A stretch of DNA of 35,014 bases, taken from NCBI GenBank assembly GCA_015660995.1, contig JACTUC010000023.1, positions 1 through 35,014 of the forward strand. Direction: 5' to 3'. The position numbers were made by a program, and so were the translations under genes. The notes under the pieces were generated by a model. It had not been told where the DNA came from. It was given only the letters and a program-made list of their open reading frames with translations, and did not search any database. This document shows, in pieces, positions 6,000 to 30,796 of the stretch. The stretch's first letter is position 1. Each line of letters starts with the position of its first letter. This stretch comes from Candidatus Methanomethylicaceae archaeon. Lineage in GTDB: Archaea > Thermoproteota > Methanomethylicia > Methanomethylicales > Methanomethylicaceae.

Positions 6000-6021
6000 T
6001 CAGCCAAAGGAGCGTCCGCCC

Positions 6022-6912: not shown

Positions 6913-6916
6913 ACTC

Positions 6917-8095: not shown

Positions 8096-8226
8096 GGTTT
8101 CACCTTTTGGGTAAGGGCTTCCTTTGAACTACCATATTATGGAATGAAAACAGTTCTTCACTTTTAACCTAGTTGCTTTGCTAGCTTGCTGCTGTAGTTT
8201 TATCTCACTGAACTTGTGATAATAGG

Positions 8227-8233
8227 TATATAA
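8227..8233 (+). promoter_or_regulatory. TATA box
   Basis: TATATAA lies 28 nt before the ATG at 8261, the normal archaeal distance for a leaderless or short-leader transcript. Confidence 0.45.
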
Positions 8234-8260
8234 GCAGAGATGCACATTATGATAAGCCCA

Positions 8261-8518
8261 ATGTTCAAGATGTTGTGGTATAAACAAACACAACGTCCCA
8301 AAGAAAGAATATTGGAATCATTCAGAGCAGGAGTATTCTACGAGTTCAAGGTAGTGATATAATTGATAGATCGCATTAGAGAGATGCAAAGGATAGCCAG
8401 TAAAAAGCTTCTTAAAGAAGGGTTAAAGAAGCCTGGCATTCGTGGAGTGAGGTATTGTAGCAGCGATAACAGCTTGGCATCACCAGTGAGCCAATATGAA
8501 GAGTTTTTGAATGCCTAA
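8261..8518 (+). pseudogene. Short frame interrupted by TAA, basic protein remnant
   Basis: A 33-codon frame beginning MFKMLWYKQT ends at TAA (8360-8362). The same frame continues for 51 codons (LIDRIREMQR to EEFLNA) to a TAA at 8516-8518. Both halves are lysine- and arginine-rich and together would make an 84-residue protein. A TATA box precedes the first ATG. It could be a small pseudogene or two tiny genes; no family is recognised. Confidence 0.3.
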
Positions 8519-8830
8519 ATCCAGTTGAAATACTTTAAAGATGTTTTTCTCTGCTTTATCTCCGAGGACAAGGTTTCAGTCACTTGACTGAGGCTCATGC
8601 ATGGCCATCTGGCTATGCCCTGTGGACCTTGGAAGCTGCTCTTCTTCAGCCCCTCTGAATCCTGCTCGAGACGTAGAGGCAGCAAGTTGGTTCCAGCCTG
8701 TACTTCTTTACCTTCAACGTCCTCTTTTCCTACTACCTAGGGGATATCGGAAGGTTTCAATGCTTGCAACCCCGGTGCTGCTTTGACTCTCTAATTGGAT
8801 CAATCATGACTACAAAGATTTAGAGTTGTT

Positions 8831-10074: not shown

Positions 10075-10646
10075 TAACGGATGAAGAATTCAAAGAGGCA
10101 ATAATCCAGTATGTTAGGGAGCACTACGAGCACTACAGAGAGGCACCCTCTCTAGGGGAGATTATTAGGCACTTCGAAGGCGAGAAGCTGAGCTTCTCTC
10201 GCTTCTACAAAGTCTTCCCTAAGGGCATGTCTGAGGTCTGCACGCTGGCTGGTGTACCGGTCCCAACTGAGCGGATGAAGAGGACTGCTAAGGCAATAAG
10301 AGCCGGAAAGAACGGACGACAGGTCGCAATCATGACTCAGGGGACGCAGGTACCCTCAAGGGTTGAAGAAGACAGGAAAAATACTTTTCCAACAGGACCA
10401 GGCGGTGCGAGGTGTCCAGCAGAAGATTGGCCTGAACATGATGGAGCGAGCAACAGTATCTGGGATGATTTGCTTGACTTGAAAGCCCGAGTAGCGGAAG
10501 TGGAGAAGTACCTTATGATAGCGTTTAAGATGGTCAAGTCGCTCGATGCAGTGTGCCCTGAATGCGGAAACAAGCTAGTTCTGTGGAGTTTGTGTACTAA
10601 CTGCCAGAAGGACTACACAATAACCCTCAATGTCCCAACCTCATAG
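10071..10646 (+). CDS. HTH and zinc-ribbon protein, third gene of the operon
   Basis: This 191-residue protein begins with a helical domain (about 1-75) containing APSLGEIIRHF and SFSRFYKVFPKGMSEVC, the pattern of winged-helix-type domains found in archaeal plasmid and virus-like proteins. A polar linker and a coiled-coil-like helix (about 131-155) lead to a C-terminal zinc ribbon (C162-x2-C165, C175-x2-C178). It is likely a DNA-binding protein for replication or control of an element. It overlaps the previous gene as ATGA. The exact role is inferred, not known. Confidence 0.7.
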   Translation: MITDEEFKEAIIQYVREHYEHYREAPSLGEIIRHFEGEKLSFSRFYKVFPKGMSEVCTLAGVPVPTERMKRTAKAIRAGKNGRQVAIMTQGTQVPSRVEEDRKNTFPTGPGGARCPAEDWPEHDGASNSIWDDLLDLKARVAEVEKYLMIAFKMVKSLDAVCPECGNKLVLWSLCTNCQKDYTITLNVPTS

Positions 10647-12909: not shown

Positions 12910-15768
12910 CTATGGGTTGTATTTGACCAGAAACTTCATCATCTCTGTGCTCATTCGTGAAATCTCTTCTGTTTTTAACTCCGTAGAGTATTTTTCAAAG
13001 TTGTGTTGGAAGACCTTCTCCTCCGTCTCGTTATAGACCTTGACCTTTTTATACCAACCAGGGAACAGGCTCTCTCCCAAGCTTTTGCGAAGATCTTTCA
13101 CATAGCCTACGGTTTCAGTCTCCTTGACAGACGGGAGATGCTTCTTCACAACATTAAGCAGGGCGAACTCTTCCTTTGTCGCCCCGAGCTTCTTGCCGTG
13201 CTCCTCTACGGCAACCACCTCATTGATTAGCTGCTGCATGTCATTGATGAGCTTGCTCTTGTCTGTGGATTTGAGTATCCTCTCCATCCTTTCGCCGAGG
13301 GTTTCGTATATGGGGTTGGTCTCGAGGTTTATCCTTATGGTGTACTCGAGGGCTTGCCTCATCTCCATAACTTTTTCCTCGGTGGAGTATCCCCTTTCGT
13401 TGAGTTTCTTTATGTATTCGCTGTTGATGTCGAAGGTTGGAAGATTCTTTTCCAGTTTGTCGATGATCAGCTTCTCTCTGATGAGGTCCTTTGTTTTTTC
13501 CTCATAGTCCGCTAGGTCTGAGACATTCCTATTGCGAAACTTGTTGTAGGCTTCATTATTCTCGATTAACCAGGAATAGTCATCCATATACTTGAAGAGC
13601 ATGGGATCGGGTGCCAGAGTCTCGTATAACATCTTCAGCTTCGATAGTTTGCCCTTGAACTCCTTGAATGTCTCCTCGTCTTTCAGTATTGCTATGAATT
13701 GCAGAATTGAGCTTCGGCTGCCATCTCTGGGAACATCACGAAACATCTTCAGGAGAGAGTTGATTGTTCTGTCAAACTCTTCCTTGAGGATGTCGTAGTT
13801 GTATGCGACGCCTTCTATGTCCTGCTCTTGGAAGTTGAGAGCTTTAACCAAATTATTGAATATGCCCACATAATCGAATATGATCCCTGCTTCCTTCCCA
13901 TGATAGGGTCTATTGGTTCTGGCTATCGCTTGGAGGAGCTTGTGGTCCCTCAGAGGTTTGTCGAGATACATCACCTGCTCAATGGGTGCGTCGAAGCCAG
14001 TGAGCAGCATGTCAGTCACGATGAGAATGCGGGGGTTGGTTCCTTTCTTCTGGAAGTCTATTCTGGCTACTCGAAACTGCTCGGTGCTATCCATATGGTA
14101 TTTCCTGAGCAGTCCGGGGTCATTGAGCCCTTTGGTGTAGATAACGGAAGAATACTCAGGGGGGAGATACTTGTCCAGGGCTTCCTTGTATAGGGCACAC
14201 CCTTCCCTATCTACTGCCACTAGCTGTGCCTTGAATCCATTGGGTTCTATATGGGCTTTGAAGTGCTCTGCGATGTCTTTGGCGACAGAATCCATCCTAT
14301 CCTTTGATTTTAACCATGTTCGAAGGGTTGCACTCTTCTCGAGCACCCTGTCCTGCTCCTCTTCGGTGAGGCCAGCAGTTATTTGGTAAAATTCCCTGTC
14401 CAGGGTTTCTTTGTCGACATGGGCCCTCGGCAGCCTGGCTTGGTATACCAAGCGGACTGTCGCTCCGTCCTCGATGGATTGCTTGATTCCATACTTGTCG
14501 AGGTAGATTTCACCCGTTGGGCAGAATGTCCTGAAGGTGCTCTTCCCACACTCGCTCTTCTCGATCGGGGTGCCAGTGAACCCAAAAATGAAGGCATTGG
14601 GGAATGCTTTCCGCATCCTCATCGCAAGTTTCCCATACTGGCTCCTGTGGGCCTCGTCAACAAAGATGATGATGTTTTTCCTCTCGCTGAGCACATTCTC
14701 GATGTCTTCGAACTTCTGAATGGTGGTGATGATAACTTCTCTGCTGTCTTTCATCAGCTTGTCTCTGAGGTCTTTGACACTTTCCGCTTTCGAAGTGTAG
14801 GGGAAATCGACATTCGAGAATGATCCCCATAGCTGTTTCTCTAGGTGTATCCTGTCCTCGATAAGCAGAATAGTGGGGTTGTCCATCTGAGGTGCTTTCT
14901 TCAGCTTCCACGCTGCCAGGAGCATGGTCAATGACTTACCCGACCCTTGGGTATGCCATATAAGCCCGCTCCTTACTTTCCCCTCGAGAACACGGGAAAC
15001 AATCTTGTTGGCAGCGATTACCTGCTGATACATAGCAATCTTCTTTCTGACCTGCTCCATCTCCTTCTCGAAGACGATGAAGTTTTGGACAAAGTCGAGG
15101 AAGAACTCTCTTCTGAAGAGGTTCTTTATCGAGTTCTCTAGGGGGTCTTCGTATTCCCTGCTCTTCCATTGAAAATACTTGTCTTGAGTTATCCAATCGT
15201 ATCTGAAGTTGATACCGTCCGTGGCACATGCCAGGGCGAGATACTTGAAGAACTGGGGAGCTTCCTCGTTGTATCGGAGTATCTGCTTTATCCCTTCGTG
15301 GTAATCAAGAAGCTGATGGGCGGGTGCCTTCGCTTCTATAACGACTAGAGGGATACCATTTACCATTAGAACAATGTCGAATCTGACATTCTCATAGCCA
15401 GAGAACTTGAACTGATTTGTTACAACATACTCGTTATTGCCAGGGTTGTCATAATCAATGAGGCGTATTGTTTGAGCGGTTTCACCCTGGCGTAGGATAA
15501 TACTTTTCTCTCCCTTTACCCAATCAAAAAAATCGCTATTGCCATAGATGTTGTTGGAAATCACCCGCAGTTGATTGATAACTCTATCAACATCGGAATC
15601 GTTTCTGATAACTGAATTGAACTTTATTATTGCTCTTTTCAATGAAGGGAGATGAAATGGTTCATCAGCGTCTCTAACCATTTCATTTGGTGGAACATAC
15701 TTCCAACCGAGTTCAACGAGCCAATCGATTATTGGCTTTTCAACGGTCTTGAACTCGGTAAAAGGCAT
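12910..15768 (-). CDS. hsdR: Type I restriction endonuclease subunit R
   Basis: This 952-residue protein has the full HsdR layout. The nuclease domain comes first, with FDIVLMVNGIPLVVIEAKAP (D131, E145, K147 of the PD-(D/E)XK fold). The translocase follows, with Walker A TQGSGKS (273-279), DEAH (371-374), and later helicase motifs including FTGTP, TDMLLTGFDAP and QAIARTNRP. A helical C-terminal region would contact the methylase. It starts directly behind the hsdS2 stop (TAAATG). With HsdM and one HsdS it would cut unmethylated DNA far from the recognition site. No frameshift is seen. Confidence 0.96.
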   Translation of the reverse strand: MPFTEFKTVEKPIIDWLVELGWKYVPPNEMVRDADEPFHLPSLKRAIIKFNSVIRNDSDVDRVINQLRVISNNIYGNSDFFDWVKGEKSIILRQGETAQTIRLIDYDNPGNNEYVVTNQFKFSGYENVRFDIVLMVNGIPLVVIEAKAPAHQLLDYHEGIKQILRYNEEAPQFFKYLALACATDGINFRYDWITQDKYFQWKSREYEDPLENSIKNLFRREFFLDFVQNFIVFEKEMEQVRKKIAMYQQVIAANKIVSRVLEGKVRSGLIWHTQGSGKSLTMLLAAWKLKKAPQMDNPTILLIEDRIHLEKQLWGSFSNVDFPYTSKAESVKDLRDKLMKDSREVIITTIQKFEDIENVLSERKNIIIFVDEAHRSQYGKLAMRMRKAFPNAFIFGFTGTPIEKSECGKSTFRTFCPTGEIYLDKYGIKQSIEDGATVRLVYQARLPRAHVDKETLDREFYQITAGLTEEEQDRVLEKSATLRTWLKSKDRMDSVAKDIAEHFKAHIEPNGFKAQLVAVDREGCALYKEALDKYLPPEYSSVIYTKGLNDPGLLRKYHMDSTEQFRVARIDFQKKGTNPRILIVTDMLLTGFDAPIEQVMYLDKPLRDHKLLQAIARTNRPYHGKEAGIIFDYVGIFNNLVKALNFQEQDIEGVAYNYDILKEEFDRTINSLLKMFRDVPRDGSRSSILQFIAILKDEETFKEFKGKLSKLKMLYETLAPDPMLFKYMDDYSWLIENNEAYNKFRNRNVSDLADYEEKTKDLIREKLIIDKLEKNLPTFDINSEYIKKLNERGYSTEEKVMEMRQALEYTIRINLETNPIYETLGERMERILKSTDKSKLINDMQQLINEVVAVEEHGKKLGATKEEFALLNVVKKHLPSVKETETVGYVKDLRKSLGESLFPGWYKKVKVYNETEEKVFQHNFEKYSTELKTEEISRMSTEMMKFLVKYNP

Positions 15769-17061
15769 TTAATTCACCTTAACTCTTAATCTGCCTGTAA
15801 GAAGGTCACTCATTAGCCCTTTTTTTAGGCTGTCTAATTCTTGTATTATATGCAGATCATTTTCTATTTTAGCATCAACATTGGAAAGTATTGATACGAT
15901 GTAATCTTGTTCAAATCGTGTGTTTGGTAACGGTATAATTATTGACAATAAGTCACTGGAGCTGAAACTCACTTGAAATACAGCGGGTTTTAGTTTCTTT
16001 TTTATTTGTTGTGAGATCTCGCTTAACATAAGAATATATTTCACGCAATGCGGGTTGATGTTATGATTTATTGTTAAAGCAAAGTTATTGAAACCGATAA
16101 TATATTTATCATCATTGCCTTCATACATGGCAACTTTTCCTATCTTTTCAGGACTGTTAACACAATTTATTATTATGTCATTAGATTTAATATAATATTT
16201 ATTTTTGTCATCAATTAATAACTCATCTAAATATTTTATGCTATTAAAATTTAATATATTGTTATCATCGATGCAATCAGAAGTGATGTATCCGATGCCT
16301 TTTTTTTCGTTGTTTGTCGCCTGTGAAGGTCCCCTTTTAATAACATCCACTATCTTTCCAAGTTCATCTATATTCCATTGTTCGGGGATCTCCCCAATCT
16401 CTGTCTGCTTGAATCTGGTATGCCTTATCCCTTTTGTGAGAAGTTTTTGCATTAATGCCTTTTTTATTTTTTGATTCCCATGAATTCTCATCTGCGTTAT
16501 TTTGATCTGTTGATCTACTGACCACAATATTGCGACGATTTTTTGTTGCTCTTCAATTTTTCGAGGCACAGGTATCTTTATCTTTCGTATACTTTCCAAA
16601 TACAGCCCTTTTCGAGTGGTTGAGGTTTGAAGAGCCTCCATTTGATATTTAGTCATTGACAAATGTAAAAGATAAGCCAGAAAATAAGAATTAATTCGAG
16701 TTGCGGGTCGTAATAAGGCTACACTTCGCACTATATTGAACTCTTCTTGAGTTTCTACAACTGCAGTTCTACCAAGAGTCCCTACGCATGTCAGCAAAAC
16801 ATCCTTATCTTGTGGATGGCATCTTTTCATTTCTTTTCTATGTTCTTCAATCGATATTTTGTCGACATTGTCAAAATGGATTTTATCATCATAGATATTC
16901 TCAACTTTTATTAAAGCAATGCCATTAGGAGCTTTTTTAGGAGTATTGTGAAAACCATCAGTTATATCAATACAAACATGACCATTTCCAAGTTCCAATA
17001 AATCCCAATCTTCGGGGATCTCCCCAATCTCTGTCTGCTTATACCCTGGCTTACTGCTCAT
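15769..17061 (-). CDS. hsdS: Type I specificity subunit, second copy
   Basis: A complete HsdS (about 430 residues) with two target-recognition domains separated by conserved helices. Each half starts with KQTEIGEIPE-x-W and each ends in a helical run (QKIVAIL..., QDYIVSIL...), and the tail is LLTGRLRVKVN. The two TRDs differ from each other and from those in the first copy, so the DNA target should differ. The frame opens at 17067; the ATG at 17061 (MSSKPGYKQ) matches the start of the first copy and is chosen. It overlaps the end of hsdM by 11 nt. The second TRD is notably AT-rich, as TRDs often are. Confidence 0.93.
   Translation of the reverse strand: MSSKPGYKQTEIGEIPEDWDLLELGNGHVCIDITDGFHNTPKKAPNGIALIKVENIYDDKIHFDNVDKISIEEHRKEMKRCHPQDKDVLLTCVGTLGRTAVVETQEEFNIVRSVALLRPATRINSYFLAYLLHLSMTKYQMEALQTSTTRKGLYLESIRKIKIPVPRKIEEQQKIVAILWSVDQQIKITQMRIHGNQKIKKALMQKLLTKGIRHTRFKQTEIGEIPEQWNIDELGKIVDVIKRGPSQATNNEKKGIGYITSDCIDDNNILNFNSIKYLDELLIDDKNKYYIKSNDIIINCVNSPEKIGKVAMYEGNDDKYIIGFNNFALTINHNINPHCVKYILMLSEISQQIKKKLKPAVFQVSFSSSDLLSIIIPLPNTRFEQDYIVSILSNVDAKIENDLHIIQELDSLKKGLMSDLLTGRLRVKVN
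16381..16410. repeat. HsdS coding repeat, copy 1 (middle of hsdS2)
   Basis: These 30 bases are identical to 17011-17040 and encode the KQTEIGEIPE segment. Start of the word on the plus strand: TTCGGGGATCTCCCC. Confidence 0.85.
17011..17040. repeat. HsdS coding repeat, copy 2 (start of hsdS2)
   Basis: Identical over 30 bases to the copy at 16381-16410 and in direct orientation. Recombination between them would remove one TRD. Confidence 0.85.
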
Positions 17062-18538
17062 AGCCAAGTTCCTTCATGAAACCCTTCACTTTTTCTTCGA
17101 TAGCCTTCCGCTCTTCTTCAAGTTTCTTCAGTTCCTGCCAGACCTTGGCTATATCGACAGGTTCCTCCTCCTCGAAGACATTAACATACCTCGTCACGCT
17201 GAGGTTGAAGTCATTCTTCTGTATCTCAGGAAGCTCCACAACCCTGGCATATTTTTCAATGTCCTTGAAACCTGAATAAGTCGAGATAACCTTTGAGATG
17301 TCTTCGCCTCTCAATCTATTCATATTCTTCAGCTTTTCAAATCCTTTCGCAGCATAGATGAAAAGAACCTTCCCTTTCCTTTCCTTGGGTTTGTTACAGT
17401 TGATGAATATAAGACAGCCAGGTGCTCCAGTGTTGTAAAATATCTTCTCTGGCAATGCTACAACGCAGTCGATCAAGTCCTCCTTAATCACCTTCTCCCT
17501 GATCTTCCCTTCGGCTCCTCCCCTGAATATGGCACCCTGATCCAGCACCACCCCCATCCTACCGTTCGATCTTAAACTGGCAATCATATGCTGTATCCAC
17601 CCCCAATCAGCGGTGCTGTTGGGGGCAATACCATAGGTGAATCTTCCGAACCTATCGTTCTCCATCAGTGGCTTGAAACCATCCTGATTCCACATCGGAT
17701 TAGCAAGAACAATTTCGAACCTCTTGAGGGAAGAACCATCAAGGAACTTTGGGTCGACGAAGCTGTCACCCTGGCGTATGTCAGCCTCCATATCGTGGAG
17801 TATGACATTCATCGATGCTATTGCCCAGGTGTCGCCGTTTATCTCCTGGCCAAAGAGGAAGAGTTTCTTCGGGTCCTTCTTGTTTTCCAGAAGGTGATAA
17901 TGGGAGACTATCAGCATTCCTCCGCTCCCGCAACAGGGGTCGTAAACCTCGCATCCCTCGCCAGGGTTCAATATCCCGACCATCACCTTGACGACTTCCC
18001 TTGGGGTATAGAACTCACCAGCCCTGGCAGGAGCTTCCTCGTTGAACTGCTTCAGGAGATACTCGTATGCGTTCCCCAGCATGTCAGGGGAGACTTGATC
18101 GTTTCCGAGCTGAAGTTGGCTAAAGTGCTCGATCAGCCGGACTAGCCGATCCTGGGGAATCTCGTCCTGCTTATTAAAATCGATTCGGTTGATAACCCCG
18201 TCTAATGGTGGATTGTTCTTTGCGATGGATGCTAGGGTGTCGTTCAGCTTCTGACCAACATTCTGGCTCTGCTTCCGTATATCCTCCCAGAGACACCCCT
18301 CGGGGATGATAAACCTATGGAACTTCTTCTTTGCGATCTCCTCGTTTCCATACTTCTTCAACAGCTCCTGATACTCTGTAAGATAGACATCGGATAATCT
18401 CTTGAAGAATAGCAGGGGGAGAACATAATCACCATACTTCTCTGGCTTCACTGCCCCCCTGAGGATGTCCGCAGCCTTCCATAATACCTGTTCAAGACCC
18501 TGTTGATTGAGACCGTCGTCAATGAGTTTTTTTTGCAT
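17051..18538 (-). CDS. hsdM: Type I DNA methyltransferase subunit M
   Basis: This 495-residue N6-adenine methylase has the helical HsdM N-terminus (1-150), GEFYTPREVV (about 174-183), the AdoMet motif DPCCGSGGM (200-208) and the catalytic region VLANPMWNQDGF (motif IV at 280-283). Motif IV is usually NPP[FYW]; here the second proline is methionine. The rest, including a coiled C-terminal tail (VWQELKKLEEERKAIEEK), is normal. The gene starts directly behind hsdS1 (TAAATG) and overlaps hsdS2, so all four hsd genes form one operon. Either HsdS could join it to form the modification complex. Confidence 0.95.
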   Translation of the reverse strand: MQKKLIDDGLNQQGLEQVLWKAADILRGAVKPEKYGDYVLPLLFFKRLSDVYLTEYQELLKKYGNEEIAKKKFHRFIIPEGCLWEDIRKQSQNVGQKLNDTLASIAKNNPPLDGVINRIDFNKQDEIPQDRLVRLIEHFSQLQLGNDQVSPDMLGNAYEYLLKQFNEEAPARAGEFYTPREVVKVMVGILNPGEGCEVYDPCCGSGGMLIVSHYHLLENKKDPKKLFLFGQEINGDTWAIASMNVILHDMEADIRQGDSFVDPKFLDGSSLKRFEIVLANPMWNQDGFKPLMENDRFGRFTYGIAPNSTADWGWIQHMIASLRSNGRMGVVLDQGAIFRGGAEGKIREKVIKEDLIDCVVALPEKIFYNTGAPGCLIFINCNKPKERKGKVLFIYAAKGFEKLKNMNRLRGEDISKVISTYSGFKDIEKYARVVELPEIQKNDFNLSVTRYVNVFEEEEPVDIAKVWQELKKLEEERKAIEEKVKGFMKELGYEQ

Positions 18539-19732
18539 TTAGTTCACCTTTGCTCGCAGTCTACCAGTGAGAAGCCCTCTCATTAGCCCTTCTTTTATCT
18601 CCAATAAATTGCATGATATTCGTGACATATTTTCTATATCACCATCAATGGATAAAAGAATTCTTGTTATTTTTTGTTGTTCAATAATAGGTGGTGTTTG
18701 AATAACGAGTGTCGATAGTATTGACGCATTTATTCCGCTCTGTGCACTTCCTACCTTCTTTTGACTAATTTGATGCCAATAATATTGGGAATTGAAAAAA
18801 TATTGAAGAAATTCAGGGGTTATTTCTCTTGTGGGTCTAACCCTGATAAGATAAGAAGCAAAAACTGCCTTTGGGACATTTCTTATTAAGAGACTTTTTC
18901 CTGTGGTCGCTCCTGTTCTGGCAAAGAGGATGTCCCCTTCGTGCAATTGGTATTTAAGGAATAGATCATCAGAGCATTCGCAATATGGAACGGTATTCCA
19001 ATCTACTTTTCCGTCTTGAATATCTGTAATTCGAAGAAATTTAATTCCTGTTTGTGCTTCTTTTGCACTTTGAGTGTAACCGTATTCTGGTTTTTCGCAT
19101 ATACTTGATAATATATTAATTTTCCACTCTTCAGGTATCTCCCCGATTTCTGTTTGCTTAAATCGGGTGTGACCTACGCCTTTGATCAGGAGCTGGTGCA
19201 TGAGACCCTTTTTTAAAGTTAGGGCTTTCGCTATATTTTCAGCAGTCTTTTCTATAGCATCGTCGACTATTGAAAGGATTGATGCAATAATATCTTGTTC
19301 ATGAGCAGGTGGTAACCTGATTATTTGTGAATAACATTCGACTCGGTTTAAGCCTGGCACGCCAGTTGCTGCATTCAGTCGGTGAAGTTCTAAAAAAATG
19401 AGCAGGTAGTATAACCACTTCAAATTCATTTTGTCATCTTTTACGGAAATATAATATGTAGTATCTATTGCCCAAAAATTTGTAGTGACCCATTGTATTG
19501 CCCCAACAGTTCCCTTTCGCCCTACGACTATCCCTGGCTGCGTAACCATTGATTCATTATGAAAACCAACAATTCCGTTTGAGCCAAATACAGGAATTTT
19601 CCCATCTATTCTTTTTTGAACAGGTAGGCTTCTACCATATTCAAGTGAAATAATATCTCCTAATTTCTTAATTCCCCATTCTTCAGGAACCTCTCCAATC
19701 TCTGTCTGCTTATAGCCTAGCTTACTGCTCAT
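18539..19732 (-). CDS. hsdS: Type I specificity subunit, first copy
   Basis: This 397-residue HsdS has two TRDs, each led by KQTEIGE[VI]PEEW, and spacer helices (HEQDIIASILSIVDDAIEK in the middle, a similar run at the end). It ends LLTGRLRAKVN, nearly the same as the second copy. The order S-M-S-R in one strand points to duplication of hsdS. It is the first gene of the operon; the start ATGAGCAGTAAG is shared with the second copy. Its TRDs (SLEYGRSLPVQ and CEKPEYGYTQSAKEA regions) differ from those of the second copy. Confidence 0.93.
   Translation of the reverse strand: MSSKLGYKQTEIGEVPEEWGIKKLGDIISLEYGRSLPVQKRIDGKIPVFGSNGIVGFHNESMVTQPGIVVGRKGTVGAIQWVTTNFWAIDTTYYISVKDDKMNLKWLYYLLIFLELHRLNAATGVPGLNRVECYSQIIRLPPAHEQDIIASILSIVDDAIEKTAENIAKALTLKKGLMHQLLIKGVGHTRFKQTEIGEIPEEWKINILSSICEKPEYGYTQSAKEAQTGIKFLRITDIQDGKVDWNTVPYCECSDDLFLKYQLHEGDILFARTGATTGKSLLIRNVPKAVFASYLIRVRPTREITPEFLQYFFNSQYYWHQISQKKVGSAQSGINASILSTLVIQTPPIIEQQKITRILLSIDGDIENMSRISCNLLEIKEGLMRGLLTGRLRAKVN
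19130..19159. repeat. HsdS coding repeat, copy 3 (middle of hsdS1)
   Basis: A diverged copy of the 30-base HsdS repeat in direct orientation; it begins TTCAGGTATCTCCCC. Confidence 0.75.
19682..19711. repeat. HsdS coding repeat, copy 4 (start of hsdS1)
   Basis: A copy sharing the last half of the repeat (CCAATCTCTGTCTGCTT) without change with copies 1 and 2. Confidence 0.78.
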
Positions 19733-22565: not shown

Positions 22566-23168
22566 CTATTTTTCATCTAATTTCTGAAAGAAATATCCAC
22601 GCCGTATTTCAAGTGCGCCTTCATATCTCAGAGGATGCCTTTCAAAATCTTCTGTCATTGTATGTACTTTGTTCTGCTCCTCCAGTGCTTCTGTTGTTCT
22701 CCCTAATTGGATAAGCGCTTCTGTTTTCGCCTGATGAAATTCCGAGCTATCGGGAAGTAACTCCAAAGATGAATCAAACTCCATCAATGCTTTTTCGTAA
22801 TCCTTCATTGATGTGTGAACCAGCCCTTTGAAGTAGTGATAATCGGCATTTCTTGGGTTGAGTTCTATAGCCTTATTCATCTCATCAATGGCTTCATCAA
22901 AGCATCCCAATAATGCAAGGGTGTCTCCCTTTTCAAAGTGAGATTGCACATTCCCAGGTTTTAATTTGATCGCATTATCAAACTCAACCAAGGCGTTTTC
23001 GAAAGAACCAAACTCAGCCATGCATTTAGCCAACCAAAGATGCAGGCGATAGTCTTTTTGATTAAGCCTGACCCCTTTTTCAAATTGAGTACATGCGTCT
23101 GGAATTTGATCCTTATCAAAGAGCACTATTCCTTTCTGCAAAAACTTGTCTGCTTTCTTTTGGTTCAT
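22566..23168 (-). CDS. TPR-repeat protein coupled to the nuclease
   Basis: This 200-residue protein contains about five clear TPR units, several with the W/LG-Y-A-P pattern (such as FENALVEFDNAIKLKPGN and FDEAIDEMNKAIELNPRN). The frame can begin with TTG at 23171, but the ATG at 23168 overlaps the nuclease stop (TGATG) and is preferred. The tight coupling says it works with the Cas4-like nuclease, perhaps holding it to other components. TPR scaffolds are frequent in defence loci. Confidence 0.85.
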   Translation of the reverse strand: MNQKKADKFLQKGIVLFDKDQIPDACTQFEKGVRLNQKDYRLHLWLAKCMAEFGSFENALVEFDNAIKLKPGNVQSHFEKGDTLALLGCFDEAIDEMNKAIELNPRNADYHYFKGLVHTSMKDYEKALMEFDSSLELLPDSSEFHQAKTEALIQLGRTTEALEEQNKVHTMTEDFERHPLRYEGALEIRRGYFFQKLDEK

Positions 23169-24346
23169 CAATCCTCTTCCTCGACAATCCTGTTGGACAA
23201 GGTTATACGATATGCATTTTCCTTTTTCGCGAGGCTTGCGATGTCCTGGTCTATTTCGTCATGCGCGATCCGCGATGATATTGCAGGATAATTAAGCATC
23301 GACAATTCATCGTAAAGGCCCTTTTCTCTTATGAGCGAAATCAACTCTCCCTTATCCTCAGGGAAGCATATTCGGACGTATTCCTTCACTGAGGCTTTTT
23401 TGTTTGAGCCGTACACCCGGCTTAATCCTTTTTGCAATGCAAACTCAACGAGCTCGCCTCGCAACTCCTGAATTTCCTTATTGGCAGTGCTCATTAATTC
23501 CTGCAGCTTAGCTAGCCTGTCCACTAGCTTTACGCCGTCATCGTTCTTGAACTCTTTGACGGTCTTTTCCTCCAGTTCAACTTCATGCATGAACAGGGGA
23601 CAGCGTTCCCGGTAGAGGCAGTAGTCGCACAAGGCGCTTTCATTCGGAGTAAAGTTTTGGCAAGATTCAATTTCTTTAATTCGCTCCATGACATCCTGCT
23701 GGAGCTGCTCCAACTGCTTGTGTGTTCGCTCAGAGACAACCTCCTTATCGAAGGCAAGCATATGCCAGACCAGATTGATTTTTTTAGCATCTTTGAACTT
23801 GTCCTTTACCCAGAGAGAGTACATGGCCAGCTGTCTGTCATCATCTGCCTCCTCCTGATCCTTCAGCCTGTTGCTGGTCTTGTAATCGCAGACGTAATAC
23901 TCATCGCCTTTGCAGCCTAGTCTGTCTATCCTGATATGGTAATAATTGCCATCGGGCAGGGGCAGCATCTCTTGCGTTTCTAGGCCAATTACAGTCATCT
24001 GATCAAAGGGTTTGTAATGATTGTAATAGTCTGAGAGGAATTTTTCGCCCATCTTTTTGTAATTCTGTTTAGTGTATTCGCTCTTAGTGATCTGAATTTC
24101 ATCGGTCCATTCCTTCGCCCATAGCTTGTCATAATAGGCGAGCAAATCATTTAGCGAGTTCATCTTTTGATACTTTAGATCTCTGTAAAGCTTCTCAAGA
24201 GTCCTATGTACGAGATTTCCTAGGAATGCTTCAATCGTGTTCGGCGTCTCGACTTCAACGCGTTCGATGTATGCAAGTTTATACTTGTAGCGGCATTGTT
24301 CAAAGGTGCTAAGTTTTGAGTTAGAGTATGTAGCCATTTCAACCAC
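23168..24346 (-). CDS. RecB/Cas4/AddB-like PD-(D/E)XK nuclease with Fe-S cysteines
   Basis: This 392-residue protein has all parts of the AddB/Cas4-type exonuclease domain. These are a first cysteine (C18 in FEQCRYKYKLAY), the helix GNLVHRTLEKLY with H47, D141 in HIRIDRLG, the catalytic CDYKTSNRL (D154, K156), the QLAMYSLW helix, and the C240-x2-C243-x5-C249 cluster that completes a 4Fe-4S site. A helical and coiled C-terminal third (about 270-392) is extra. It should process DNA ends. It lies 70 nt behind mcrC and is coupled to a TPR gene. No cas1/cas2 or CRISPR is present, so it is not a CRISPR adaptation gene here. Confidence 0.9.
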   Translation of the reverse strand: MVEMATYSNSKLSTFEQCRYKYKLAYIERVEVETPNTIEAFLGNLVHRTLEKLYRDLKYQKMNSLNDLLAYYDKLWAKEWTDEIQITKSEYTKQNYKKMGEKFLSDYYNHYKPFDQMTVIGLETQEMLPLPDGNYYHIRIDRLGCKGDEYYVCDYKTSNRLKDQEEADDDRQLAMYSLWVKDKFKDAKKINLVWHMLAFDKEVVSERTHKQLEQLQQDVMERIKEIESCQNFTPNESALCDYCLYRERCPLFMHEVELEEKTVKEFKNDDGVKLVDRLAKLQELMSTANKEIQELRGELVEFALQKGLSRVYGSNKKASVKEYVRICFPEDKGELISLIREKGLYDELSMLNYPAISSRIAHDEIDQDIASLAKKENAYRITLSNRIVEEED

Positions 24347-24416: not shown

Positions 24417-25712
24417 TTATGATGCTTCAGTCATAAAGTCTGACATTATCTGTTTCAATTGCTCTTTGACCCCAGCAATGTAATCTTCGTATCCAATTTC
24501 GTTGCAGTCGTCTAGGTGAAGGTCAACGGTTCTCGCGTAGATTTTGACCTTGCTTGAGTCCTCTCCTGTAAGGTCCCGTACCAAGGTCAATTCCCTGTCA
24601 ATTTCTGAGGCTTCTGATTTTGGATAAATAAGGCAGCATGCTTTGCTTTTCCGCAATGCCAAGCTGTAAGCTATGACCTGATAGTAATCTGCATTTGCTG
24701 GATCCTTCTTATATTTAGTATCAATTATGAAAGGATATTCCGCTTTACCCTTACGCAGCACAATGTCTGGTTTCGTTACTATTGTCTTTTCCTCAACGAG
24801 TTTGTTGAAGCGAGGTTGTCTTTCGATTATTAAATCTTTGAATTCAGTGCCTATGACTTCTTCGACCATTTCAGTGATAAAATCCTCATAAACTTTATTC
24901 ATGTCTACTATGAAGTTGAACCCTCTCGACTCTCCTTTGTAAACACTTCTGATGAATCTCTCTTCAAGGATGAGCCTGGACAGACGGATTATATCTTCAT
25001 AGTGTTGGTTAATTCTGTTGAACCTGATGAAGCTACATTCATGAGGATCCATGTTAACTAATGTAATGAAATCTTTTAGTGCTATTTCATGCCTTCTCAA
25101 CTTACTTCTTAACTTCTGATCGAACTTTATAAGGGATATAAGGGAATGCAAAGCGCTTAGAACCATTTGATTTTCCTTGTTGTCAAAAGTGAGATCCTCG
25201 AATTCGCAAAAAAACCTTGACTTGTAGATCATGTTCTTCTTTATCTGACCCTTGATTAAGATCTTGCCTTTTGCAAAGCGCGCGTTCTCCTGTTTTCTAA
25301 CATATTTTCTCAGTAGCCCTTTTCTAATTACATCGTCGAGCTCTTTCTGGAAGAATCGCCCTAAAATGTCAAAGAAATTCATACCTTCTTTGATTTCAAT
25401 TGGAGTTTCTGGGTCGTACAGAAATTCTTCTTCGTCTTTCAAGGAGCTGAGTAAGTAAAAGAGGTTCGTATTCACTTTCGTGGAGAAATGTATTCGTTTC
25501 TCTGAAAGTTGAATTATGCCTGCGTAGGGGCCAACTGTGATCTTGGGTTTGTATTCATGGTCGCTTAGACGAGTGTAGGTAATTCTGATATTTTTTTTCG
25601 AACCTCTGTTAAAGTATTTGCTATGAAGATATGCCTCATCTTCTTTTGACGGATAGAACTCCAGTTCTTTCTCTAATGAATTCTCTGGGACTGTAATTAA
25701 TTCTTCAGCCAT
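24417..25712 (-). CDS. mcrC: McrC-type nuclease subunit of a McrBC system
   Basis: This 431-residue McrC-family protein has the N-terminal beta region that plugs into the McrB ring, helical middle regions (FFDILGRFFQKELDDVIRKGLLRKY) and the C-terminal PD-(D/E)XK domain with TKPDIVLRKG (D316) and FIIDTKYKK (D331, K333). The first ATG overlaps the McrB motor gene by 8 nt, so the two are made together. In known systems McrC stimulates the McrB GTPase and cleaves DNA with modified bases. Catalytic residues look intact. Confidence 0.95.
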   Translation of the reverse strand: MAEELITVPENSLEKELEFYPSKEDEAYLHSKYFNRGSKKNIRITYTRLSDHEYKPKITVGPYAGIIQLSEKRIHFSTKVNTNLFYLLSSLKDEEEFLYDPETPIEIKEGMNFFDILGRFFQKELDDVIRKGLLRKYVRKQENARFAKGKILIKGQIKKNMIYKSRFFCEFEDLTFDNKENQMVLSALHSLISLIKFDQKLRSKLRRHEIALKDFITLVNMDPHECSFIRFNRINQHYEDIIRLSRLILEERFIRSVYKGESRGFNFIVDMNKVYEDFITEMVEEVIGTEFKDLIIERQPRFNKLVEEKTIVTKPDIVLRKGKAEYPFIIDTKYKKDPANADYYQVIAYSLALRKSKACCLIYPKSEASEIDRELTLVRDLTGEDSSKVKIYARTVDLHLDDCNEIGYEDYIAGVKEQLKQIMSDFMTEAS

Positions 25713-26703
25713 TTGTGGAGCCTGCTTTGTTAAGCACTAGGTCCAGAAAACTATCCAGTTCTTCTATCTTTGTGAAGCCTTTTATGCCAATTCTGTTGTT
25801 AATGTAGAGATTTTGTTCTGTCACTTCAAGAGCTTGAAGTATCTTGTCATAATCACAGTCAAAGTACTCCTCTAGCAAGGGAAGAATTTCGTACTGCCAA
25901 ACTCTCATTAAGGCGCCTTGATCAAACACTCTAAAGAAGAAAGAATGACCTATTTGTTTGTCTCTCCCTAGTTCTTTGATTATTTTACCATTGATTTTTG
26001 TGACAGCATCAATGGATTTACTTAGATATTGATAGACATCGTTCTGTTGGAGTACTGCTTTGTTTCGCTCCATATGATTAGATCGTAATATGTCAAAATC
26101 TGGAGGCACCTCCACGAAGCCGAACCTTCGTCTGAGCGCAATATCTACAAGAGCAATACTTCTATCAGCTGTGTTCATCGTTCCTATTATATGCAGATTT
26201 GGTGGGACGCTAAATTCATCATTTGAATATGGGAGTCGAACGACTATTTCGTTTTCCTGAGCTAACCTCTTGTCTTTTTCTAGTAGAGTAACTAGTTCCC
26301 CAAATATCTTTGATGCATCTCCTCTGTTGATTTCGTCTATGATAAGAACAAAGTCCTCTGCTTTGTCCCAAATGTCATTTCTGATTGCTTCTCTTAATTT
26401 GCCTTTAACCTTGCTCTGGTACTTCTCAAATATGCTTCGCCATTGGTCTTCCCAAGGTTCCAAGCTTCCATTTAGGTTTTCTCCGATTGCTTTCGCTAAC
26501 GCAAGGGTACAGATTTTCTTAAATATCCCCCATTTTCTGATGTAGCTTATTTCTCCATTATTTTCTGCTTTTCCTTGGTCAGTGTTGACAGTTATTCCTT
26601 CAATGAACTCTTCATAGCTGTAAGAGGGGTGGAAGGTAATGAATTCTAGACGCCCCTCGGTGCGAAGCTGGTTGTATTGAGCATGAAAATCATTCTCAGA
26701 CAT
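25705..26703 (-). CDS. mcrB: McrB motor without P-loop (C-terminal AAA+ part)
   Basis: This 332-residue protein begins with ...RLEFITFHPSYSYEEFIEG (the region after the P-loop in McrB). It holds the Walker B segment FVLIIDEINRGDASKIFGE (118-136), the McrB signature MNTADRS (176-182) and the arginine-rich LRRRF motif, then the lid domain. No Walker A is present. That motif lies at the C-terminus of the preceding gene and again two genes upstream. This frame has its own ATG with AAGGAGAG 8 nt before it, and is neither in the frame of the preceding gene nor joined to it. It should form a hexameric motor only with a P-loop partner. Confidence 0.9.
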   Translation of the reverse strand: MSENDFHAQYNQLRTEGRLEFITFHPSYSYEEFIEGITVNTDQGKAENNGEISYIRKWGIFKKICTLALAKAIGENLNGSLEPWEDQWRSIFEKYQSKVKGKLREAIRNDIWDKAEDFVLIIDEINRGDASKIFGELVTLLEKDKRLAQENEIVVRLPYSNDEFSVPPNLHIIGTMNTADRSIALVDIALRRRFGFVEVPPDFDILRSNHMERNKAVLQQNDVYQYLSKSIDAVTKINGKIIKELGRDKQIGHSFFFRVFDQGALMRVWQYEILPLLEEYFDCDYDKILQALEVTEQNLYINNRIGIKGFTKIEELDSFLDLVLNKAGSTNG

Positions 26704-26711
26704 ATTTCTAA

Positions 26712-26719
26712 CTCTCCTT
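26712..26719 (-). promoter_or_regulatory. Shine-Dalgarno of the P-loop-less mcrB gene
   Basis: AAGGAGAG on the minus strand, 8 nt before the ATG at 26703. It indicates independent translation of the motor part rather than loss by a chance frameshift. Confidence 0.6.
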
Positions 26720-26771
26720 TATCTGATTTAACTTTGCTCCTATCAATTTCGAAAACATTTGCTCGAATCTC

Positions 26772-27734
26772 CTATGGTTCTCTCCCATTAGCTTGCGTGC
26801 TACGTAACAGATAACCTACTGCAAACCTTTGAGCCTCGTAGGTTTTGCCAGTACCTGGCGGGCCATACAAAATAATCTGTTTCTTCTCCTGCAATAATTT
26901 AAAAAAGGGTGATTCGCCATCTTGTTGTCCGCGTCTGTTTACTGCTGAACCGAAGCTGACTTCAAGTCCTGCTTTTTCAAGACTTCTCACAAGAGCTAGT
27001 TTGTCATAATTCTCTGCACAAATCAATATTGTTCCCGGAACCTTAACTTTCTCATCAAGAGGAGGAGGCAATTTTGATCTATTGAAGTTCCTTGGTTTTT
27101 CCCACCATACTACTTTGCGCTGGTTGGCATATCCTAATTCTCCATTTATGTTTCCAACCCTGTTCTTGTCATCGAAGTAGTAATCGCCTTCAATCTCTCC
27201 TATCATGGCAACGGTATTATTCCTACTATAAGCAATTATAAGATCCCCTTTGTGGATTTTATCTCTAAAGGTAATCAGCTGATTTGCGTCTTTTAGACTA
27301 CTTAGATTAGAACCACCCCACTTTGCTTGACTAATTTGCTGTATTTCATCTTTTGTTTTACCAGTTAAATCACCGAAATCAGTCCAACCTACTGCGACAA
27401 CTCCATCTTCGTAAAGGATCTCAGCTGCCCTTTTAGGATCTTTATGATGGGTAACTATCTTAATTACTTGCACATTGGTTGTTTTTTCTACAATGTCGAA
27501 TTCTTTTCTTTTTAGGAAGTTGTTTGTCTCATCACCCCCAGAGAATTGCGAAGGGTCTAATTCACGACCATTAGCGAACTTATTTGCTAAGGAAATTACG
27601 TACTTTGGGGGAAAGTGTTCTCCGTTGTAAAGAATACTCCATGCAGTCGATTCGCGATAAGGTGGGATCTTGCCTTTCTTTATCTCGCTTATAGCTTGGA
27701 GAATGTGTTGACGAGTAATGTTTGACGGAATCAC
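26772..27734 (-). CDS. ScoMcrA-head plus EVE-like sensor ending in a P-loop
   Basis: This 320-residue protein has three parts. Residues 1-84 match the ScoMcrA-type N-terminal head (RESTAWSILYNGEHFPPKYVISLA, given as a region from about 27, and FSGGDETNNFLKRKEFDIVEK). Residues about 88-240 look like an EVE/PUA-fold modified-base reader (VVAVGWTDFGDL, GDLIIAYSRNNTVAMIGEI, KVVWWEKP). The end carries IILYGPPGTGKTYEAQRFAVGYLL with Walker A at 291-298, and then stops at residue 320. The start is GTG at 27734. A 68-nt gap separates it from the motor gene, so the P-loop seems to be supplied in trans. Confidence 0.82.
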   Translation of the reverse strand: MIPSNITRQHILQAISEIKKGKIPPYRESTAWSILYNGEHFPPKYVISLANKFANGRELDPSQFSGGDETNNFLKRKEFDIVEKTTNVQVIKIVTHHKDPKRAAEILYEDGVVAVGWTDFGDLTGKTKDEIQQISQAKWGGSNLSSLKDANQLITFRDKIHKGDLIIAYSRNNTVAMIGEIEGDYYFDDKNRVGNINGELGYANQRKVVWWEKPRNFNRSKLPPPLDEKVKVPGTILICAENYDKLALVRSLEKAGLEVSFGSAVNRRGQQDGESPFFKLLQEKKQIILYGPPGTGKTYEAQRFAVGYLLRSTQANGREP

Positions 27735-27798
27735 AAGTCAAGCCTCATCAAGCCATTTACGACATTTATTTTCTGTTGGCGATTCTTAGTCATCAATT

Positions 27799-29256
27799 TC
27801 ACCTATTGTCTTTGTCAGACAGGAATTCTACAGCAAGTTTTTGAGCTTGAAAGGTTTTCCCCGTGCCAGGTGGACCATACAAGATCACCTGCTTTTTCTC
27901 AGATAGCAATTCGACGAAGCCCTGAGGTGCTTTTTTCATGACTGGTGCGATGGTCCCTAGCGTCTTGAGAAGCGTTCTCAATTTTACTAGATGCTCTTCT
28001 GCTTCATTGTTCGGAGGGTTCAGTTTAACAATTTTCTCATATCGATCTATCACATCTTCAAGGATTCTTTTTGCGTTTGAAGGTTCAAGATAGTTGAATC
28101 CTCCTTGTCCGACTCTCTGGCCGTTCAAGTGAGGCTCAGAAGCATCTAGGTAGGTTTCAGGCAAGAACCCGAAAGACACTCTTCTATCGCCTGAGATGTT
28201 GAAATAAACATTCCCTCCTATTGCTGTGTTTTTATCTAGAACTCCTTTCTCCAAAAACTGGGCATTTCCGTAGATTCCAACAATCCTTCCATTGGAATGG
28301 AAAAAGATGATTTTTCCTTGACCTTTGTTTTCAGCGAAAGCTCTTGGTGTGCCATGGCACTGAAAGAATCCATAGACTACTTCTGGCGTATCGACTGCTT
28401 TATCGAATTTGAAGTCTAAGGTTTCATGAGGCATATTTCCCTTTGCAACGTATCTGTACCCTGATTTTGGTGGTATTTGGGGTTCCATCCATCGATGGTC
28501 ATTCCAAGCAAGATTAGCAACAATATAGCTCCCATGAATGAATTCATTCTTTGAGCTGGGTTCTTCGAAGGCTGAATAGATAAAATTATAGATTGGCTCA
28601 AGTTTTTTGAAATCTTCAATTATTGAGTTAACCAATTGAGGAGACGTTACCATAGGGTCATTTAGGTCATATTTACGAACTATCTCCATATTGTCCGATT
28701 GGAGCCAATTACTTAGACTAACTTCATCCACAATTCTATTTTTTTCTGGTGGCACATTATGAGAAGGTATGTTTCGAGTGATCGGAAATGTAAATTCAAG
28801 GGGCAGTGCCTTCGCATACTCTACGAAAGTGCTTTTTTCACGTTCTGCCTTTTCTCTAAATTGATTTTTCATTGGTTCCTTTACCCTACTTCCCCAAAAA
28901 ATTCCTGTCTCGAAAAAAGAATCGTGAACAGTGATGTAGAGTTGAAAATCAGACGACTTATTTCCACTCGCTTTTCTATAAAATGCTGCCCATAGATATT
29001 CTTGATATATCTTTCTATCTTTTGTTGGAAATCTTCTATTGATTACCGACAAGCAATGCAATGAATCAGCCTTAACCTCCAATGAGGGATATGTTTTTGA
29101 AATATACTGTTCAGCTATGTCTTCAACTAAAGCTTTGACTCTCTTGTTCAGATCGTCTAGCCTAGATCTATTTGCATCCATCCATTTTTTGTTATTGTTG
29201 GACTTTAACTCTGCTAAGAAATTAAATGAATCCCGGGTGAAACCGGTAAATCTCAT
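27799..29256 (-). CDS. DUF2461-like and PUA-like sensor ending in a P-loop
   Basis: A 485-residue protein. Residues 1-150 resemble the DUF2461/TIGR02453 family (FTRDSFNFLAELKSNNNKKWMDANR as a region from about 7, later DRKIYQEYLWAAFYRK and FFETGIFWG). The part from about 290 to 370 has alternating beta patterns (VVYGFFQCHGTPRAF, KIIFFHSNGRIVGIYGNAQF) that could be a PUA/EVE-type reader. It ends QVILYGPPGTGKTFQAQKL with Walker A at 461-468 and a stop 17 residues later. No AAA+ remainder follows; the next gene starts after 64 nt. It is the first gene of the McrBC operon. Confidence 0.78.
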   Translation of the reverse strand: MRFTGFTRDSFNFLAELKSNNNKKWMDANRSRLDDLNKRVKALVEDIAEQYISKTYPSLEVKADSLHCLSVINRRFPTKDRKIYQEYLWAAFYRKASGNKSSDFQLYITVHDSFFETGIFWGSRVKEPMKNQFREKAEREKSTFVEYAKALPLEFTFPITRNIPSHNVPPEKNRIVDEVSLSNWLQSDNMEIVRKYDLNDPMVTSPQLVNSIIEDFKKLEPIYNFIYSAFEEPSSKNEFIHGSYIVANLAWNDHRWMEPQIPPKSGYRYVAKGNMPHETLDFKFDKAVDTPEVVYGFFQCHGTPRAFAENKGQGKIIFFHSNGRIVGIYGNAQFLEKGVLDKNTAIGGNVYFNISGDRRVSFGFLPETYLDASEPHLNGQRVGQGGFNYLEPSNAKRILEDVIDRYEKIVKLNPPNNEAEEHLVKLRTLLKTLGTIAPVMKKAPQGFVELLSEKKQVILYGPPGTGKTFQAQKLAVEFLSDKDNR

Positions 29257-29392: not shown

Positions 29393-29590
29393 TTGGGATA
29401 CAATTTGCAATTAATGGCCGCTTTAACAATAATGCAGACATTTTCTTGGATTACGTACGATCAACATCACAATTGCATTCGTCCATATGAGACTTTGGAT
29501 GGAAAGACGCTTACTGAGGCTTGCGAGATTGAGGTCAAGGGTGAAAACAAATGGAAGATGCTAATCCAGAATGCAAGTCATCATACTTAA
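29393..29590 (+). pseudogene. Transposase C-terminal remnant
   Basis: The last about 50 codons read TFSWITYDQHHNCIRPYETL, then DGKTLTEACEIEVKGENKWK and LIQNAS. This is the characteristic end of archaeal DDE (integrase-core) transposases, where [YF]N-x-RPHE-x-L-GKTPAEA is usual. No catalytic D, D or E and no N-terminal domain is present, so it is a fragment of an insertion sequence. It lies directly upstream of the McrBC promoter dyad, marking past transposition at this edge of the locus. Confidence 0.65.
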
Positions 29591-29710: not shown

Positions 29711-30796
29711 TTAGACATAGGTTCCAGCCCCTGGATTCTTATTCCAAGACCCACATTTAATATTTATGGATGGAATCTCTCTATTTATCATGTTTGGAAT
29801 TAATAGAGGAGGATAAACAACGCCGTCAGATATCCAAATATAAGAATTATTAGCATTTTCAATCGCCCCAAGTTTAACTTTGAAAGGAACGGGGTTAGGT
29901 ATAGTCTGGTTTAATTGAGTAATTATCGTTTGATATCTGTATTGTTGAGGTAATAGTATCTCAGCATCGAAAGGTTCTGCCATTTTGAATTCCTTTGCGT
30001 AAGAATAGTATATTTTCATCATTAATTCTTCCTCCACGGTAGAGGGTTGGACAACCTTCAGCCCAATTTCTTTAGCTAAATCTCTTGTAATTTGAAAATC
30101 GTGAGTATATACTTCAGTAAGAAACCTAATGATGTTTTCTATTTTCTCTTCATTTGTCTGCGAATCCATGTGTAATGATAGAACCTCTTTGGCAATTCGT
30201 CTTATTTCATTATATACTCGATTAACATTTCCAAGTGCTAAAGGCTCACAGTTTTTTGTCAATTCTTTAAATACTTCCAATTTATGATCTTCGCCACAAA
30301 GTCCGACTTTGTCTCTTGCTAAATTTAGGTATGCTTGAACATCTTCAACGCTGATCTGCTTTCTATTTAATGGATTAGAAGGGTCAACTTGAGGATTTAA
30401 TATAGGATTAAAAACACTACCTGTTGAAGGATCAACTGGGCTAAGAACGCCCATCTTCCCCATCACAATATTATTCGCTCCCAATGCGAGCTGTGTTCCA
30501 GCACTATGAGCCCGGAATGGAACTAAAACGTTAAATTCTTTGGTATATTCTCGAAATAATTTTACTATACTATATGCAGACATCATAGCCCCACCTCTTG
30601 TATAGAGGAGGAGTTCAATTCTATCCCTAGTCCCAGTTTCTTCTAATAAAGAATGCAATGGTTCAATAGCATCATCTGCGATCATAAGATTTGTCATGTT
30701 TGTACGATCTGTTAATGTAAAATAGGTAATCAAAACGGAGTTCCTTTTTTTCTGCAATTCATCAATAAGCTTTTTTCGCTCTTCAAAATTACTCAT
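29711..30796 (-). CDS. SDH-type Clp-fold serine protease-like protein
   Basis: This 361-residue protein resembles the SDH (serine dehydrogenase proteinase) family of the ClpP/SppA fold. It has ELLLYTRGGAMMSAYSIVKL (61-80) with the oxyanion GG at 68-69, and PFRAHSAGTQLALGANNIVMG with the nucleophile S98, followed by LSPVDP. A helical region (170-260) and a beta-rich C-terminus follow. No signal peptide is seen, so it is cytoplasmic or peripheral. These proteases occur in genomic islands, and one can imagine a role in defence or in regulated proteolysis. The next gene upstream encodes a membrane protein and is 100 nt away. Confidence 0.82.
   Translation of the reverse strand: MSNFEERKKLIDELQKKRNSVLITYFTLTDRTNMTNLMIADDAIEPLHSLLEETGTRDRIELLLYTRGGAMMSAYSIVKLFREYTKEFNVLVPFRAHSAGTQLALGANNIVMGKMGVLSPVDPSTGSVFNPILNPQVDPSNPLNRKQISVEDVQAYLNLARDKVGLCGEDHKLEVFKELTKNCEPLALGNVNRVYNEIRRIAKEVLSLHMDSQTNEEKIENIIRFLTEVYTHDFQITRDLAKEIGLKVVQPSTVEEELMMKIYYSYAKEFKMAEPFDAEILLPQQYRYQTIITQLNQTIPNPVPFKVKLGAIENANNSYIWISDGVVYPPLLIPNMINREIPSINIKCGSWNKNPGAGTYV

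Follow-up and report, generated by a model that had tools for sequence, protein, structure and literature searches.

An McrBC-type operon in a Candidatus Methanomethylicaceae archaeon encodes its McrB in separate pieces, with two sensor proteins that each end shortly after a P-loop and a motor protein that has none. We think it probable that McrB in this operon is a split protein whose sensor tails complete motor subunits in trans, and that these subunits form a hexamer with McrC. This interpretation rests on the observed anatomy of the genes, their conservation in other genomes, selection acting on the P-loop tails, and an exact tiling of the AAA+ domain. It suggests that, in a few archaea, one motor is common to several detectors. 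The operon is located on the reverse strand of the window, by which we mean the whole stretch of 35,014 nucleotides of DNA that was analysed.

Anatomy of the divided McrB

Sensor 1 (27799..29256, reverse strand) is a P-loop-ended protein of 485 amino acids encoded upstream of sensor 2. It carries a DUF2461 domain at residues 10-225 (PF09365, 3e-19), a region without assignment at approximately 230-430, and then the beta1, P-loop, and alpha1 elements of an AAA+ domain. The P-loop GPPGTGKT (27853..27876, reverse strand; residues 461-468) is followed by the base-stacking aromatic F469, and the C-terminus reads ILYGPPGTGKT-FQAQKLAVEFLSDKDNR, with the stop codon 17 amino acids past GKT. Sensor 2 (26772..27734, reverse strand; 320 amino acids) is located between sensor 1 and the motor, and is composed of an N-terminal head (approximately residues 1-85) and an EVE/PUA-like domain (approximately 96-221) ahead of the same three elements. 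Its P-loop (26841..26864, reverse strand; residues 291-298) is followed by the aromatic Y299, and the protein ends as ILYGPPGTGKT-YEAQRFAVGYLLRSTQANGREP, with the stop 22 amino acids past GKT. Profile matches for this protein are PDC-S02 (1e-14) and positions 251-461 of PDLC03448. In both cases, the DUF2461 or EVE-like sensor domain lies N-terminal to beta1 on a chain separate from the motor. The initial annotation saw no similarity over most of the length of the two sensors, which is correct outside the tail, but the last ~38 residues of the two proteins are 61% identical.

Each subunit of an AAA+ motor is normally a single chain that contains both Walker A and Walker B. In the window these two motifs are not in one chain, as the P-loop is confined to the two upstream proteins. 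The McrB motor (25705..26703, reverse strand; 332 amino acids), which was assigned by PF07728, structure mapping, and a structure model, is without beta1, P-loop, and alpha1. It begins with MSENDFHAQYNQLRTEGRLEFITFHPSYSYEEF, at a start 23 residues ahead of TFHPSYSYEEF, and carries LIIDEINR (Walker B, with D123 and E124), GTMNTADRS (NxxD, with N177), ALRRRF, and QIGHSF (IGH, with H253). The Pfam AAA_5 profile (PF07728) is aligned over its positions 50-139 only. The motor gene has a Shine-Dalgarno-like sequence, AAGGAGAG (26712..26719, reverse strand), 8 nucleotides before its ATG. Its frame differs from that of sensor 2, and several stops separate the end of sensor 2 from the motor start. The gene for the partner nuclease McrC (24417..25712, reverse strand; PF10117, 3.9e-52; DUF2357/PD-(D/E)xK) overlaps the motor gene by 8 nucleotides. 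These open reading frames bear out the earlier description of two proteins that end at the P-loop, followed by a P-loop-less motor with its own ribosome site in another frame after a stop. The nearest relatives of this motor are archaeal.

To locate the cut, we used the AAA+ chain of Thermococcus gammatolerans McrB (TgMcrB) as reference (6ut3_A, where the residue number equals the chain position plus 185 in the numbering of PMC7680126). Residues 450-482 of sensor 1 map to chain positions 19-51, residues 279-314 of sensor 2 to positions 18-53, and the motor profile to positions 54-361, with a match to TgMcrB of 1e-81. Together, the sensor tails (residues 203-238) and the motor (residue 239 on) tile the AAA+ domain with neither gap nor overlap. 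This sequence-based mapping puts the cut in the loop that joins alpha1 to beta2 in the AAA+ core. The sensors carry the counterparts of Lys221, Thr222, and Trp223, the last being F469 in sensor 1 and Y299 in sensor 2, and the motor carries those of Asp356, Glu357, Asn410, and His501 as D123, E124, N177, and H253. In TgMcrB, Trp223 makes a stacking contact with the guanine base, and the elements that read guanine are located upstream of, and outside, the core AAA+ fold (PMC7680126). This guanine-reading side upstream of the core falls on the sensors in the split system.

A structure model of the motor based on 31 sequences (pLDDT 87.5) has TgMcrB as its closest solved fold, and the beta5 strand is not formed in it. 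The sheet order of AAA+ domains is 5-1-4-3-2, in which beta5 pairs with beta1. We count the missing beta5, the normal partner of beta1, in favour of a split motor. We also count the absence of another motor or matching sensor from the same genome, where a search found no second match to the motor and a search with sensor 1 matched only itself and the P-loop tail of sensor 2. A single-sequence model of sensor 1 (pLDDT 36) was not usable.

Split, half-split, and fused relatives

In a scan of genome contigs, the best match to the motor is found in Candidatus Methanoperedens MnB_21 (locus L047, 52% identity), where the gene order is that of the window: sensor 1, an EVE-like sensor 2, a P-loop-less motor, and McrC. 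Sensor 1 of this locus (259 amino acids, ending in ILYGPPGTGKTYNARIIAVKFIGEVD) is helical and its domain is not DUF2461. Sensor 2 (212 amino acids) is EVE-like and ends in ILYGPPGTGKTYKAREFAVNFIKNHIKED, and the motor without a P-loop (319 amino acids) has McrC next to it. A third locus, L228 (G832), was found in a more distant archaeon by scanning all retrieved loci for P-loop-ended open reading frames, and encodes a 139-amino-acid sensor 1, a 213-amino-acid sensor 2, a P-loop-less motor of 433 amino acids, and McrC. The kind of sensor 1 varies by locus, with DUF2461 in the window, a helical protein in L047, and a small beta domain in L228. Sensor 2 is EVE-like in the first two loci and similar in the third. 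The end point and the gene order thus recur in two unrelated genomes, which upholds the contention that the matching end points go beyond chance. The question of whether relatives preserve the order of the three genes and a stop following the P-loop is answered positively by L047 and L228, with a further locus (L169, below) being intermediate.

The genes at L047 and L228 abut or share a few bases, and a strong Shine-Dalgarno sequence is present ahead of the motor gene in all three split loci. In L047 (AAGGAGGACTAAAGATG) and L228 (TTGGAGGAGTGAAAATTG) this sequence falls within the final codons of sensor 2. One might propose that the active protein is a fused sensor 2-motor McrB produced by frameshifting or stop codon readthrough, and that the split products are by-products or regulators like E. 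coli McrBS. At L047, the four codons upstream of the motor ATG are open in the motor frame, which overlaps with the end of sensor 2. L228 has sensor 2 and the motor in one frame (starts at 10816 and 10171, 645 nucleotides apart), with only a single TGA and one codon between them (10172-10177, reverse strand; GGAGGAG lies just before). Because this in-frame TGA alone parts sensor 2 from the motor, readthrough could yield a fused product at this locus, which weighs against the split-motor interpretation. In the window, however, no single shift can join sensor 2 to the motor because of the intervening motor-frame stops, and a frameshift between them is thereby ruled out, as is a readthrough fusion. 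Moreover, sensor 1 cannot be joined to the motor at any of the three loci, as had been claimed for frameshifting in the window, and each motor start has its own Shine-Dalgarno sequence. We consider recoding unlikely as the general explanation.

Other relatives show only part of the split, or none of it. L169 (G653) encodes a 432-amino-acid sensor ending in IIYYGPPGTGKTYKTKSIAIQLIKDN, then a full-length McrB of 563 amino acids with another sensor, and then McrC, such that a P-loop-ended sensor is present without any separate motor. No Shine-Dalgarno-led internal motor start that might feed this lone sensor was seen in the fused McrB of the locus. The partner of such a sensor beside a full-length McrB is unclear, as it has no obvious free motor, and this weighs against the split-motor interpretation. 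In L168 (G751), a homologue of the L169 sensor (55% identity over 418 amino acids) is fused to the motor; the sensor is cut in one locus and fused in the other, so the module boundary is identical in both states. The closest relatives of the window locus are mixed: L047 is split, L169 half-split, and L168 fused. In trees of the motor and of McrC, these three loci and the window form a single clade (100/96 and 100/100), and L228 falls outside it, near fused haloarchaeal McrBs. From these positions, the split either arose repeatedly at one point, or is ancient and was followed by re-fusions. The trees do not decide between the two.

Selection on the tails was assessed with seven P-loop tails (21 pairs), which have 70% protein identity and differ at 68% of four-fold sites (145/212). 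Codon positions 1, 2, and 3 differ by 27, 14, and 62%, respectively, and the motor and McrC genes exhibit the same codon pattern between the window and L047. All seven tails stop 14-22 amino acids past GKT, and every one has the P-loop lysine and threonine and the base-stacking aromatic. Retention of the protein while four-fold sites diverge indicates purifying selection on the tails. This constraint bears on the possibility that two McrB genes were independently truncated and that only pseudogene fragments remain. Restriction genes often decay, and the fused relative L045 (G286) has an McrB interrupted by a frame change, with the motor end in another frame. Decayed stubs, however, would not retain the constraint seen in the tails. 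In addition, three genomes share the end point and gene order, the open reading frames are all intact at 52% identity, and McrC and the motor are intact with every motif present. The initial annotation disfavoured decay, and proposed that full-length McrB in close relatives would overturn its view. The relatives proved to be split, half-split, or fused, with their genes all intact and conserved, which supports neither decay nor sequencing error. Conservation in L047 and L228 and the codon-level constraint rule out a sequencing error or pseudogene, and the decay explanation, already largely refuted, retains almost no credibility.

The retained residues also speak to the idea that the P-loop tail merely fixes a sensor to the motor, with no nucleotide binding or hydrolysis by the rings through the tail. 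A P-loop-tailed sensor adjoining a full-length McrB in L169 would be compatible with such a docking role. The P-loop lysine and threonine and the base-stacking aromatic are nevertheless kept in seven of seven tails, and the motor retains Walker B, NxxD, and IGH, leaving this idea very unlikely. Alternatively, the P-loop might be a recombination hinge for sensor swapping, and the unfused sensors might be an idle stock. The sensor that is fused in L168 and P-loop-ended in L169, as well as the wide sensor variety within one motor clade, could be cited in support. However, the P-loop DNA is unconserved, as seen at the four-fold sites, and so it is not a DNA homology hinge at present. The motors of the window, L047, and L228 also have no P-loop of their own, and hence no sensor in the fused state. 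We regard an idle sensor stock as very unlikely.

Several other loci have unusual McrB arrangements. The L045 McrB (5724-8750, reverse strand) carries an insertion of ~200 residues at the split point, between alpha1 and beta2, indicating that this loop tolerates large changes. L174 (G494) was rejected as a split case because its P-loop and motor open reading frames overlap by 100 nucleotides in two frames with extra sequence, consistent with a frame error or a frameshift; another EVE-like stretch follows its P-loop. L084 and L109 have P-loop-less motor open reading frames without a P-loop-ended sensor upstream, and were not counted.

Full split loci appear to be rare, with only three found, a small number that counts against the split-motor interpretation. 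Among the 80 best genome-contig loci, P-loop-ended open reading frames were present only in L047, and none of the 80 viral loci matched by a tail profile contained one. A plasmid search with sensor 1 gave no case, although phage and plasmid matches to the motor were outside the split scan. When the motor was searched for in the class to which the window belongs (40 genomes), in part of that phylum, and in two classes of the phylum, no additional split loci emerged, nor did any from the L047 class or the part of the L047 phylum that was covered. All of these searches are samples.

Proposed assembly and comparison with known McrBC systems

In the split-motor interpretation, each sensor would supply half of the nucleotide site, comprising the central beta1 strand, the P-loop lysine and threonine, the base-stacking aromatic, and the upstream guanine-reading segment. 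The shared motor would supply the other half, with Walker B, NxxD, the histidine positioned over the base, and the trans residues. The sensor tail (beta1, P-loop, and alpha1) would co-fold into a motor subunit, completing the GTP site together with the sheet. Subunits completed in this way might then assemble into the usual hexamer with McrC and work as in known McrBC. A single motor and a single McrC could in this way serve several sensors, and rings with either or both sensors may be possible. Because beta1 is a central strand, the motor alone probably cannot fold fully, which counts against the interpretation, and assembly would need to be co-translational, with sensors probably loaded during folding. 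The tight operons and coupled starts fit such loading. That the subunits complement each other in trans and form mixed rings, as the initial annotation also proposed, is inferred, and so are sensor-motor binding, GTPase activity, and the targets. We give roughly even chances to a more specific model of a ring with a two-polypeptide GTP site in each subunit, in which sensors compete to donate beta1 and the P-loop, only sensor-loaded subunits bind GTP, and several DNA marks are read at once.

As far as sequence can establish, the system is McrBC by its motor, its McrC, and its gene order, and it does not meet the defining feature of a single chain with Walker A and Walker B. McrC (PF10117) is encoded beside McrB, and the AAA+ motor has Walker B, MNxxDRS, IGH, and RRRF. 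The McrBC systems of T. gammatolerans and E. coli (PMC7680126; PDB 6ut3-6ut8) are alike in catalytic motifs, PF10117 McrC, placement of the sensor N-terminal to beta1, and operon order. In known McrB, however, a single chain holds sensor, P-loop, and motor (PMC7680126), whereas the split system is cut after alpha1 and has two sensor genes per motor gene. The E. coli McrBL and McrBS proteins form mixed rings in which some subunits have a sensor and others have none, as is proposed for the split system, and McrBS indicates that McrB rings may be short of some sensors (PMC12707154). McrBS lacks only the sensor and keeps its P-loop (PMC12707154), whereas the split motor is also without a P-loop and cannot bind nucleotide alone.

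CoCoNuT systems likewise comprise McrB and McrC relatives with some parts separately coded, such as the coiled-coil CnuA (PMC11090510). They differ in that their McrB GTPase is intact and has an NxD motif, and in having coiled coils (PMC11090510). The split motor has NxxD (MNTADRS) and not NxD, and CoCoNuT identity is ruled out on this basis. The CoCoNuT census does not mention a split, a frameshift, or DUF2461 (PMC11090510). In the archaeal EVE- and YTH-McrB proteins, an EVE-like sensor is located right before the McrB GTPase, as in the split system, but these are fusions (PMC7641849), whereas the EVE-like protein of the split system stops at the P-loop. The accessible literature, which mostly excluded subscription papers, yielded no account of a split McrB or a split AAA+ motor.

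A conserved natural cut between Walker A and Walker B would make motor activity depend on sensor loading, and the split would explain how one motor-nuclease pair serves several recognition domains. A natural split motor would also offer a test system for the coupling of sensing to GTP hydrolysis. For annotation, P-loop-ended proteins and P-loop-less motors of this kind would be labelled as truncated McrB.

Genomic neighbourhood

A type I restriction-modification operon at 12910-19732 (reverse strand) encodes HsdR and HsdM, with one HsdS gene on each side of HsdM. TPR genes are found on the same strand as the split McrB operon. The presence of the type I operon and the TPR genes on this strand places the split locus within a defence-rich stretch. 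The type I enzyme has two HsdS specificity subunits, and its neighbour is the split McrB with its two sensors. Directly downstream of McrC, and near enough to belong to the operon, is a gene for a PD-(D/E)xK nuclease (23168-24346, reverse strand; PF12705, with Cas4-like matches). Just upstream of sensor 1 lies a fragment resembling the C-terminus of an integrase-type transposase (HHNCIRPYETLDGKTLTEACEIEVKGENKWKM; 29430-29590, forward strand), and a ClpP-like SDH-type serine protease (PF01972) is encoded upstream of the operon at 29711-30796 (reverse strand). The window also encodes a Cas12f/TnpB-like protein (PF07282) at 6917-8095 (reverse strand).
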